Source: a candidate division WOR-1 bacterium RIFOXYB2_FULL_46_45 (GTDB lineage Bacteria > Margulisbacteria > WOR-1 > XYC2-FULL-46-14). From it: a DNA stretch of 64,000 nt. Location: NCBI GenBank assembly GCA_001771585.1, contig MEUE01000003.1, forward strand, positions 186,001 to 250,000, given 5' to 3'. A program made the translations under genes and the position numbers. Of this stretch, positions 19,889 to 23,560 are shown piece after piece (position 1 is the first letter of the stretch; each line of letters begins with the position of its first letter). The notes under the pieces are model-generated. The model was given only the letters and a program-made list of their open reading frames with translations, was not told the origin of the DNA and ran no database searches.

Positions 19889-19917
19889 ATTCTAGTTTTT
19901 ATAAGATGATTTGTCAA
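19889..19917 (-). promoter_or_regulatory. Promoter of minor-pilin cassette 1
   Basis: TTGACA (19917-19912), 17 bases, TAGAAT (19894-19889) on the minus strand. The -35 lies in the Val-Asp-Lys codons of the duplicated glycosyltransferase tail, and the -10 begins with its stop codon TAG. The gap of 7 bases to the GTG implies a leaderless message. Confidence 0.72.
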
Positions 19918-20035
19918 CGAGATAGCGCCAGCAGACCGCAAGAGTTTGCAGGCCGTAGATGGTGCTGTTTACAAAATTGACCGAAGAGGCCTCGGAAAAA
20001 TAGCGGCAGGGGATCGCGATCTCCCCCACTCTGAA
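19892..20035 (-). pseudogene. Diverged copy of the 3' end of the GT2 gene at 20718
   Basis: These 47 codons and stop read FRVGEIAIPCRYFSEASSV and on to WRYLVDKSSYKN, matching the last 47 codons of the intact gene at 20718-21437. By eye about 90% of bases agree, and only about four residues differ. The upstream edge ends abruptly at AT-rich sequence leading into a low-complexity palindrome. It lacks the catalytic domain, so it is a remnant, yet it still carries the promoter of the pilus operon. Confidence 0.85.
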
Positions 20036-20160: not shown

Positions 20161-20517
20161 CTAATCCGGCAGAGAACGAATTAATCCGGCCAGCATTTTT
20201 GCGATTTCCTCTCCTTGATCATATAAGAACTTGAACTCTTCCGGATTAATCTTTTTTCTTCGCAACAGTATTTCTAAAACGGGGATACACTCATGCAACG
20301 ATCCCCGACTTGTATAATAAAACTGCTTTCTCTCTTTCGTATGGATTCTTCCGTTTGCTTCGGCAATATTTAACGGAATTGAAATCGCGGCTCGACGAAG
20401 TTGGTCGGCCAACTTATTAAATCCGCTCCCCCGCATATTTTCACAAACCGAAAAAATCCTGTCGACAAAATTGACTGACTTTTGATAAGCTTCCAGTTTT
20501 TCGAATAAGAAGGCCAT
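20161..20517 (-). CDS. Four-helix-bundle protein (S23/IVP family), second copy
   Basis: A 118-residue helical protein with the family core FEKLEAYQKSVNFVDRIF, LADQLRRAAISIPLNIAEANGR and FYYTSRGSLHECIPVLEIL. An in-frame Met three codons upstream is possible; MAFLFEKL is the usual family opening. It is the only gene in the roughly 680-base insert between a complete GT2 gene and a diverged copy of that gene's 3' end. Its function is unknown; related small bundles also serve as accessory proteins of diversity-generating retroelements, but no reverse transcriptase is here. Confidence 0.9.
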   Translation of the reverse strand: MAFLFEKLEAYQKSVNFVDRIFSVCENMRGSGFNKLADQLRRAAISIPLNIAEANGRIHTKERKQFYYTSRGSLHECIPVLEILLRRKKINPEEFKFLYDQGEEIAKMLAGLIRSLPD

Positions 20518-20541
20518 ATAAACCATCCCAGCAATTTTGCC

Positions 20542-20714: not shown

Positions 20715-20743
20715 TATCTAGTTTTTATAGCGGGCTTTGTCAA
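20715..20743 (-). promoter_or_regulatory. Promoter-like sequence at GT2 gene end
   Basis: TTGACA, 17 bases, TAGATA, with the -35 in the last codons of the GT2 gene and the -10 starting at its stop codon. It matches the cassette 1 promoter position in the duplicated copy and would drive the four-helix gene with a leader of about 190 bases. Confidence 0.5.
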
Positions 20744-21437
20744 CGAGGTAATGCCAGCAGACCGAAAGAGTTTGCAGGCCGTAAATGGTGCTGTTCACAA
20801 AATTGACCGAAGAGGCCTCTGAAAAATAGCGGCAGGGAATCGCGATCTCCCCCACCCTGAACTTGTTCGCCGCCGCCTCCGCCAGAAATTCGGTGTCGAA
20901 AACAAAATTGTCGGAGTTTTTTTGGTACGGGACCGTCTCCAAAACTTTGCGGCTGTAGGCGCGCATGCCGGTATGATATTCGGACAATTTTAATCCCAGG
21001 GTTAAATTTTCACACAAAGTCAAAAAGCGGTTGGAGATAAATTTATAAATCGGCATCCCGCCGGCCAGAGTTCCTCTTTTTCCTCCCAATATCCGGGATC
21101 CAAGCATGACATCTTTTTCTCCTTTGATAATTGGAGCAATCAGTTGGGGGATCTTGGTCGCGTCGTACTGCCAGTCGGGATGGATCATCACGATTATATC
21201 CGCCCCCTCTTTCAACGCCGCGTCGTAGAGCATCTTCTGGTTGCCGCCATAGCCAAGGTTGAGCGGAGTTTTCAGGACTTTGATCCCAAGTGACCGGGCA
21301 ATTTCGATCGTATTGTCGTGGGAGCAGTCGTCGCCCAAAATAATCTCGGAGACGATATCTTTGGGAATATCTTCGTAGGTCCTCCGCAACGTTTTTGCCG
21401 CGTTATAGGCGGGCATGATGACTATGGTTTTGGGCAT
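20718..21437 (-). CDS. GT2 family glycosyltransferase (GT-B of this locus)
   Basis: A 239-residue DPM1-like GT2 enzyme: VIMPAYNAAKTLRRT at the start, the DDCSHDNT nucleotide-sugar motif, NLGYGGNQKMLYDAA and MIHPDWQYD as the DxD-like region. There is no C-terminal membrane segment, so it probably acts at the cytosolic membrane face, moving a sugar to a polyprenyl or glycan acceptor. Its 5' end was once overlapped by the GT2 gene at 22832-23560; an ATPase cassette now separates them. The present start lies 8 bases after a good -10 box supplied by the cassette. Confidence 0.92.
   Translation of the reverse strand: MPKTIVIMPAYNAAKTLRRTYEDIPKDIVSEIILGDDCSHDNTIEIARSLGIKVLKTPLNLGYGGNQKMLYDAALKEGADIIVMIHPDWQYDATKIPQLIAPIIKGEKDVMLGSRILGGKRGTLAGGMPIYKFISNRFLTLCENLTLGLKLSEYHTGMRAYSRKVLETVPYQKNSDNFVFDTEFLAEAAANKFRVGEIAIPCRYFSEASSVNFVNSTIYGLQTLSVCWHYLVDKARYKN
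21412..21437. repeat. Left 26-bp direct repeat flanking the ATPase cassette
   Basis: Exact 26-base match to 22822-22847; identity stops sharply on both sides. This copy holds the first nine codons of the intact GT-B gene. Confidence 0.95.
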
Positions 21438-21445
21438 AAAGCTTA

Positions 21446-21474
21446 AGTATAGTTAAGGATTACTTTTTTGTCAA
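21446..21474 (-). promoter_or_regulatory. Outward promoter for the GT-B gene
   Basis: TTGACA (21474-21469), a 17-base spacer and TATACT (21451-21446) on the minus strand. The gap to the GT-B start codon is 8 bases with no Shine-Dalgarno sequence. It lies in the inserted segment. Confidence 0.72.
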
Positions 21475-21481
21475 CTTACCC

Positions 21482-21510
21482 TTGACATTCGCCATCTTGC
21501 ACAGTATAGT
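21482..21510 (+). promoter_or_regulatory. Promoter of the DUF4143 ATPase gene
   Basis: TTGACA (21482-21487), 17 bases, TATAGT (21505-21510). The predicted start near 21517 gives a leader of about 43 bases. The -10 lies inside the inverted repeat at 21497-21525. Confidence 0.75.
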
Positions 21511-21525
21511 AAGTATACTGTGCAA
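21497..21525. promoter_or_regulatory. Operator-like dyad over the ATPase promoter
   Basis: Perfect 12-base arms TTGCACAGTATA and TATACTGTGCAA separated by 5 bases, covering the -10 box. A third half-site, TTGCACAGTAT, lies at 21538-21548 in the leader. This arrangement suits a dimeric repressor; which protein binds it is unknown. Confidence 0.75.
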
Positions 21526-21559
21526 AAAAGAGATATTTTGCACAGTATGGTATAAAATC

Positions 21560-22828
21560 ATGCTAAAAAATGCTGTTTTAAAGCAAAAAGAAGAAAAAAA
21601 GAGGCTTTTGTCGTTATCTTATGTGGAACGAACAAAAATGAAAGAAGCCATGAAATGGCTTGATTCGGATCTGATCAAAGTCGTTTTAGGTCCGCGCCGG
21701 GCCGGAAAATCGATCTTTTCGTTGATGCTTTTACGTAATCGGGAATTCGCCTATTTTAATTTTGACGACGAATCCGTTCCGGAAGAAAATTTTGACTGCG
21801 ACCTGCTATTGCAAGAATTACACGCCGCTTATGGTAAGACCAAATACATCTTGTTTGACGAAATACAAAACCTACCCAGGTGGGAACTGTTTGTCAACCG
21901 CCTGCATCGAGAAGGATACAATCTGGTTTTAACCGGATCAAATGCTAATTTATTAAGCAAAGAATTGTCTACCGCTCTCACCGGACGGCATATCCCGATA
22001 GAAATTTTGCCTTTTGACTTCAAAGAGTTTCTGCGAGCCAGGCAGTATGAAATAACACCGGATCAGGCAGTTATCCCGGAAAAAAAAGGCCGGCTTTTGA
22101 ATTTACTGGAACAATACATGAAAAGCGGCGGTTATCCGGAAATAGTCGTTAAAAACCTTGATCCTAAAGAATATCTTTCCGTTCTTTTTGATTCTCTACT
22201 TTTTAAAGATGTCGTCAAAAGGCACAAAATAAGGTTTTCCGGCCAAATAGACGATCTGGGCTCATACTTGATCAACAATGTATCCTGCCGGTACAGCTTA
22301 AGAAAATTAGCCTCCGTTCTGGGCTTTAAAAGCGGCGTCACCCTGGAAAAATATGTGCGCTACCTGATTGAGGCCTATATAATATTTTCACTTAGCCGCT
22401 ATTCGCACAAGGCGGGGGAACGGCTAATATCCCCGAAGAAAACTTATGTGGTTGACAACGGCTTGATCGGCGCCAAAGCGATTCAACATTCTCCGGACAA
22501 CGGTAAACTGCTGGAAAACATGCTGTTTATTGAACTGGTTAAAAAGGGCTTTGAGCCCAATCGGGAACTGTTCTATTACAAAACCAGAAACAACCGCGAG
22601 ATAGATTTTGTGACAAAGAAAGGGACGGAGATAATCGAATTAATCCAAATCGCGTATGAATCAAAAAACCCCGACACGGAACAACGGGAGATAAAGGCGC
22701 TCCTTGAAGCTAATCAAGAACTAAAGGCCGGCAAACTGACCGTTATTACGTGGGACGAAAAAAAAGAGCTAACCAAAGAAGGCTTAACTATTAATTTTGT
22801 CCCTGTTTGGGAGAGGATGATGGCATGA
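21560..22828 (+). CDS. AAA+ ATPase with DUF4143 C-terminal domain
   Basis: A 422-residue stand-alone ATPase. Walker A is LGPRRAGKS near residue 40, Walker B YILFDEIQN near 95, and the sensor region LVLTGSNANLLSKELST follows. The GRHIPIEILPFDFKEFL block leads to the DUF4143 part with a winged-helix-like segment and the nuclease-like motif FYYKTRNNREIDFV. The family is widespread, spreads readily between genomes and has no settled role. The ATG at 21560 follows the promoter and operator; the longer frame from 21482 would read through them. The last codons lie in the right direct repeat. Confidence 0.93.
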   Translation: MLKNAVLKQKEEKKRLLSLSYVERTKMKEAMKWLDSDLIKVVLGPRRAGKSIFSLMLLRNREFAYFNFDDESVPEENFDCDLLLQELHAAYGKTKYILFDEIQNLPRWELFVNRLHREGYNLVLTGSNANLLSKELSTALTGRHIPIEILPFDFKEFLRARQYEITPDQAVIPEKKGRLLNLLEQYMKSGGYPEIVVKNLDPKEYLSVLFDSLLFKDVVKRHKIRFSGQIDDLGSYLINNVSCRYSLRKLASVLGFKSGVTLEKYVRYLIEAYIIFSLSRYSHKAGERLISPKKTYVVDNGLIGAKAIQHSPDNGKLLENMLFIELVKKGFEPNRELFYYKTRNNREIDFVTKKGTEIIELIQIAYESKNPDTEQREIKALLEANQELKAGKLTVITWDEKKELTKEGLTINFVPVWERMMA

Positions 22829-22847
22829 TGACTATGGTTTTGGGCAT
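22822..22847. repeat. Right 26-bp direct repeat flanking the ATPase cassette
   Basis: Exact copy of 21412-21437. Here it supplies the last codons and TAG stop of the GT2 gene at 22832 on the minus strand and the final codons of the ATPase on the plus strand. Confidence 0.95.
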
Positions 22848-23560
22848 GGGTCCTTCTTTATTTTCGGCAAAGACAAAATAAAGCGCAAATGTTCCATCAC
22901 AACCTTAAAAACCTTGATTTTGGAACGGCCGTATTTTCGAACCGATAAAACGGCCGGATATTCCACAATATTCAAACCAAGATAAATTGACCGCACCATA
23001 ACCTCGGTTACAGCGATAAATCCGTTATTTTCAAATTTTAATTTATTGGCGGCTTCTCTTTTATAAATCCGCATAAAGCTGGTATAAGTATAAATCCGGT
23101 CGGATACCAATCTGCGGTATAGCCAGGAAGCCCCCTTACTGAAAACCAGTCGCCACACCGGCACTCCCTCCACTCCACCCTTTGGATGATATGGCGAAGC
23201 TGAAACAACATCAATTTTATCGTCTTTTGAAATTATCTCCAACATGGCGCAAATTTCTTCCGGCGCAAAAGTGCAGTCTGAATCTAGGAATACAATATAA
23301 TCGCCGGAAAAAGCATCAAATCCGGAACGCATCGCCGCACCAATCCCCAGATTTTTAGGGTGTCGAATTATTTTGGCCTGCGAAAAAAACTGCTTCAATA
23401 AATCAAAAGTAGAATCAGTGCTTCCATCATCGATCAAGATCAACTCAACCTCATAATTTTCTTCGAGTTGCTTAATAACCGGTGAGATTCGAGAATGAAG
23501 AATTGAAATCCCCTGTTCTTCATCTAAAAAAGGGATAGAAATAGACAGTTCTTTTCGCAT
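22832..23560 (-). CDS. GT2 family glycosyltransferase (GT-A of this locus)
   Basis: A 242-residue polyprenyl-phosphate-type GT2: SISIPFLDEEQGI, LILIDDGSTDSTFDLL, HPKNLGIGAAMRSGF and VFLDSDCTFAP (DxD). It lacks the two C-terminal membrane helices of many DPM-like enzymes. Its stop codon is provided by the 26-base repeat. The gene was probably the first of a two-gene unit with GT-B before the ATPase insertion. It diverges from the methyltransferase gene. Confidence 0.92.
   Translation of the reverse strand: MRKELSISIPFLDEEQGISILHSRISPVIKQLEENYEVELILIDDGSTDSTFDLLKQFFSQAKIIRHPKNLGIGAAMRSGFDAFSGDYIVFLDSDCTFAPEEICAMLEIISKDDKIDVVSASPYHPKGGVEGVPVWRLVFSKGASWLYRRLVSDRIYTYTSFMRIYKREAANKLKFENNGFIAVTEVMVRSIYLGLNIVEYPAVLSVRKYGRSKIKVFKVVMEHLRFILSLPKIKKDPCPKP

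Follow-up and report, generated by a model that had tools for sequence, protein, structure and literature searches.

A compact unit holding a single gene, which encodes an AAA_14-DUF4143 ATPase, lies between two adjoining glycosyltransferase genes of the candidate division WOR-1 bacterium RIFOXYB2_FULL_46_45, and it almost certainly arrived there by insertion. We found it in a 64,000-nucleotide stretch of contig MEUE01000003.1 (the window, whose positions are used below unless a contig is named). Similar inserts, each with one gene and bounded by long target duplications of variable length, occur elsewhere in this genome and in its phylum, and some of the target sites are present as single copies in related species.

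The window unit is 1.4 kb long. A preliminary description had it bounded by an exact 26-bp direct repeat, and this is what the sequence contains: GGCATGATGACTATGGTTTTGGGCAT is present in two exact copies, at 21412-21437 and 22822-22847. Both flanking genes encode family 2 glycosyltransferases on the minus strand. The left copy contains the first codons of the downstream gene (20718-21437), including its start codon, and the right copy contains the final codons of the upstream gene (22832-23560) together with its stop. As had also been claimed, joining the flanks makes the two genes overlap by 16 nt, ATGCCCAAAACCATAG. The ATPase (422 amino acids; 21560-22828, plus strand) is encoded from an ATG at 21560 to a TGA at 22826-22828, the mechanically called reading frame beginning at a TTG at 21482. 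This TGA, a point missing from the earlier account, is itself inside the right repeat copy, so that the last codon positions and the stop of the ATPase are supplied by the target. The open reading frame list and a Pfam search gave no transposase in the insert and no gene other than the ATPase.

The preliminary description proposed looking for a relative with an unoccupied junction, and G001, a genome from the same family, has one. There, both glycosyltransferase genes are adjacent and uninterrupted, with the same neighbors and without the ATPase; the downstream and upstream proteins are 86% and 62% identical, respectively, to those of the window, each over 235 amino acids. Given this empty site, the state seen in the window is an insertion. 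Two further loci are similar: a repeat at the apparent start of mnmA (L171) is a single copy without an insert in sister species G036, G031, and G046, and one at the start of obg (L175) is a single copy without an insert in G046 and G031. At several loci, joining the flanks restores long reading frames, and the repeat sits at either the beginning or the end of the host gene (mnmA, obg, tsaD, mdh, and proA, as named by eye from the protein sequences); the host gene stays whole because the long duplication falls there. The unit had been portrayed as repairing what it interrupts. Both host genes are indeed kept intact, but this does not need a design: a gene stays complete when a long target duplication falls at its start or end, and insertions of this kind are the only ones expected to survive.

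Within 1 kb of the ATPase insert, the end of the glycosyltransferase gene is also present as a 145-bp direct repeat (90% identical; 19891-20035 and 20717-20861). It brackets a 23S_rRNA_IVP gene (four-helix bundle) around 20161-20526, with no counterpart at that place in the G001 locus. This second insertion is the older of the two and likewise duplicated its target.

How general is the arrangement? The survey of other DUF4143 genes that had been suggested found repeats both in this genome and in the phylum. Here, exact direct repeats of 19 to 37 bp flank five of the seven DUF4143 genes. When the same flank-repeat test was applied to all open reading frames of at least 100 amino acids in about 0.86 Mb of the genome, 14 of 744 were positive, and five of these were DUF4143 genes (Fisher p ~2e-8), making DUF4143 the most enriched family among repeat-flanked reading frames. 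The other nine, of about 737, include 23S_rRNA_IVP genes, a nucleotidyltransferase, and tandem paralogues. Across 110 DUF4143 loci of this and related genomes, about 27 to 28 have repeats of 17 to 135 bp, where re-paired flanks, used as the null, predict at most 0.1. By score, 30 loci reach at least 16 (0.1 expected) and 25 reach at least 20 (none expected); re-paired flanks almost never reach 17, and the null is about zero at scores of at least 18. Neither of the counterarguments foreseen in the preliminary description, the lack of an empty-site ancestor and family members without repeats, overturned the insertion.

The repeats in the phylum are about 75 to 100% identical, as expected for insertions of different ages, and the median pairwise identity of the repeat-flanked proteins is 23%, so diverse a set that it is not the product of one recent burst. 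About 75% of DUF4143 genes have no detectable repeat. Genomes were sampled at one per species, so fresh insertions are rarely seen, and test windows reaching 300 to 1000 bp from the gene would fail to detect much larger inserts. Among the 30 loci, L048 is a neighboring paralogue, and the L026 and L120 repeats are in part of low complexity. At L167 and L170, a 40-bp palindrome stands on either side of the ATPase gene, and these repeats may be operator copies rather than target duplications. The overall result is independent of these five loci.

At 27 loci the inserts measure 1238 to 1509 bp and hold one ATPase gene with 12 to 144 bp upstream of it; a wider scan gave larger spans at only four loci. 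Relative to the end of the stop codon, the right end lies at -10 to +12 bp in 15 of the 27; in 7, the target copy contains part or all of that codon. Comparison of the first 60 nt with the reverse complement of the last 60 nt in 28 inserts gave no signal of terminal inverted repeats beyond the null. No end sequences common to the inserts were found, and the target sequences are unrelated between loci. The inserts differ from an insertion sequence or DDE transposon in having no transposase, no terminal inverted repeats, and no target duplication of fixed length.

The protein belongs to a widespread family. Both domains score above the curated Pfam cutoffs, AAA_14 (PF13173) at 108.3 bits (E value of 3.5e-31; cutoff, 27) and DUF4143 (PF13635) at 79.1 bits (E value of 4e-22; cutoff, 28.1). 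In a structure model of the window protein (pLDDT 93), the AAA+ core resembles Orc1/Cdc6, Sso1545, RuvB, and TnsC, and the modeled domain that follows is a winged helix as read from its secondary structure. The archaeal AAA+ ATPases Sso1545 and PABY2304 (2fna and 2qen) are among the closest solved structures by fold, a likeness of architecture alone. The C-terminal domain is modeled as alpha-beta-beta-beta-alpha-beta (pLDDT 88), a PD-(D/E)XK-like fold that matches McrC best, with Can2 and Hjc also among the matches. McrBC likewise pairs an AAA+ motor with a PD-(D/E)XK nuclease; DUF4143 proteins differ in being a fused single chain, and the window's subfamily in lacking the E-x-K residues. Across the family, E319 and E347 are invariant and D349 is nearly so. 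Where most other DUF4143 proteins keep E-x-K, the window's subfamily has Q-x-A. The window protein and other repeat-flanked members (4 of 4 proteins tested; window E value of 1.7e-101) match the PADLOC models of PDC-S01, a single-gene phage defense candidate. PDC-S01 is reported to be the fourth most common defense across prokaryotes, in a source that describes experimental validation as pending for most PDCs (PMC12988326). In the part of that source consulted, S01 is described as transferred across domains, and no insertion unit or target duplication is given (PMC12988326).

The insert carries two promoters that point in opposite directions. The outward one (21446-21474, minus strand) consists of TTGACA (21474-21469), a 17-nt spacer, and TATACT (21451-21446), followed after 8 nt by the glycosyltransferase ATG, and it matches 11 of 12 consensus positions. 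The preliminary description had drawn attention to this promoter, and it is present in the window as stated; it is not general in the DUF4143 family, since among the other inserts an outward promoter is marginal at L134 and clear at none. The ATPase promoter lies at 21482-21510 on the plus strand (TTGACA, 17-nt spacer, TATAGT). Its -10 box is covered by a palindrome, TTGCACAGTATA-N5-TATACTGTGCAA (21497-21525), with a third half-site at 21538-21548, and this palindrome is likely an operator. Upstream of DUF4143 genes generally, promoter palindromes are enriched (42% versus 6.4% at scores of at least 9) and differ between loci, which suggests that these genes are autoregulated.

Outside the phylum, samples were small and repeats were rare. 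On named plasmids of other phyla, 1 of 12 DUF4143 loci has a repeat, a weak one, and in Chloroflexota 1 of 8 copies has a degenerate 41-bp repeat. Moraxella bovis has two plasmid types with 96% identical DUF4143 copies, and the similarity stops inside the stop codon. In Thermus thermophilus, five aligned contexts have a common right boundary about 45 bp past the stop, behind a terminator-like sequence; the DUF4143 flanks on HB27 and HB8 pTT27 gave no long repeats when scanned. Also on T. thermophilus plasmids, DUF4143 genes or fragments (L287-L290) have near-identical C-terminal ends in differing contexts, a pattern that loss or exchange of N-terminal parts might produce. On Simkania negevensis pSn (L176), a DUF4143 gene lies between two integrase-annotated reading frames, and on Emticicia pEMTOL02 (L185) one lies between an araD-like gene and araA in an arabinose operon; neither locus gave long repeats.

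Long repeats also bound other compact modules in the WOR-1 genome, namely MNT/HEPN modules, a nucleotidyltransferase, and 23S_rRNA_IVP genes. One MNT/HEPN-type module (G000:C1 115619-116371) has 28-bp repeats, and another (G000:C1 286631-287889), with 33/72-bp repeats, also contains a 23S_rRNA_IVP gene. In relatives, 3 of 19 HepT loci have strong repeats, two of these being orthologues. Of 30 23S_rRNA_IVP genes taken for comparison, 7 reach a score of 16; about 3 to 4 of these look clean, and the others have low-complexity flanks or a tRNA-region repeat. The MNT/HepT toxin-antitoxin modules thus resemble the DUF4143 inserts in compactness, in their long direct repeats, and in the genomes in which they occur, the same and related ones; they differ in having two genes and unrelated proteins. 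Because they bear the same signature, DUF4143 may not be the only family moved in this way. This favors a common route for compact modules, and self-movement of the ATPase is also compatible with it. At L158, a DUF4143 gene and an apparent MNT nucleotidyltransferase gene seem to lie together within a 61-bp repeat. At G000:C1 749145-752170, a 629-amino-acid reading frame adjoins ruvA, and the 3' part of ruvA recurs on the far side of this frame (repeats of 122, 69, and 41 bp).

How might such units move? The account we find most plausible, and hold tentatively, is capture at a staggered break, helped by an agent acting in trans and followed by retention under selection. We imagine that the compact unit, promoter and ATPase gene, entered the glycosyltransferase operon when it was joined to a target broken with widely staggered ends. 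Fill-in of the overhangs would duplicate the target, 26 bp in the window and 17 to 135 bp in general. If nothing recognizes the ends, they would be ragged and any target would be acceptable. The ATPase would be a passenger, and a host or trans-acting process would move it and the MNT/HepT modules alike. The unit might persist by being selected for or hard to lose, as a candidate single-gene defense with an autoregulated promoter may be, and unselected inserts would be lost again through recombination between the repeats. Capture does not easily explain why right ends lie within about 12 bp of the stop in 15 of 27 inserts, some of which have perfect repeats, or the rarity of short inserts lacking a gene in the 0.8 Mb scanned. 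The account must also invoke decay, other routes, or lineage limits, because about three-quarters of the genes are without repeats and the plasmid and Chloroflexota counts are so low.

Self-transposition, in which the AAA+ and PD-(D/E)XK-like protein makes widely staggered cuts in the target and places a copy of its gene there, is a lesser possibility. The ATPase is the sole gene in the insert, and its family is the most enriched among repeat-flanked reading frames. Its C-terminal fold matches McrC and other DNA-acting nucleases, its core is like Orc1/Cdc6, RuvB, and TnsC, and the right end is at the stop codon between the Moraxella plasmids too. However, the inserts offer no common end sequences to recognize, and unrelated modules have the same signature. 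The window's subfamily lacks E-x-K, yet such copies are flanked as often as others (repeats at 5 of 12 lacking loci versus 23 of 93, a rough count from a pattern search that put the window copy itself in the wrong class), though another copy could act in trans to move them. For the same reasons, and since neither transposase nor terminal repeats were found in the inserts, the view of the unit as a self-contained cargo is unproven. One can envision a new class of transposable unit, in which the ATPase recognizes its own gene, cuts with a stagger of 20 to 130 bp, and pastes itself without inverted repeats or a known transposase, so that a candidate defense gene is its own vehicle; we regard this as rather doubtful.

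We disfavor a conventional transposase acting in trans, of the type found in IS1549 and IS1634. Those elements make long direct repeats of variable length, 8 to 514 bp (PMC2266710), and in this they resemble the DUF4143 inserts; they have a DDE transposase and terminal inverted repeats, and the inserts have neither. Equally improbable to us is template-switch replication (MMBIR-like), by which a stalled fork would copy a donor gene and re-enter upstream of the break, duplicating the target. This would account for variable repeat length and for the missing ends and transposase, but it predicts random donor boundaries rather than a right end at the stop, and it does not predict one gene per insert. 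That the repeats are attL and attR of an integrase system or integron is very unlikely: the window repeat is perfect at both ends, but repeats at different loci are unrelated and unequal in length, with no common att core, and the insert has no integrase. Tandem duplication can give repeat-flanked stretches, and some pairs in this genome arise so, but it can be dismissed here, along with chance and assembly artifact, given a null near zero, the independence of the genomes, and the sister species whose empty sites have one copy.

A very common and unexplained bacterial gene, which encodes an ATPase fused to a nuclease-like domain and is listed as an antiviral candidate, thus occurs as a single-gene insert between long copies of its target sequence, and direct tests of its spread and possible excision are now feasible. 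If PDC-S01 travels in this way, the spread of the family, precise excision between the repeats, and the sharing of a route with toxin-antitoxin modules all become testable. Long repeats around single genes are also a signature by which other one-gene mobile units can be spotted in unannotated genomes.
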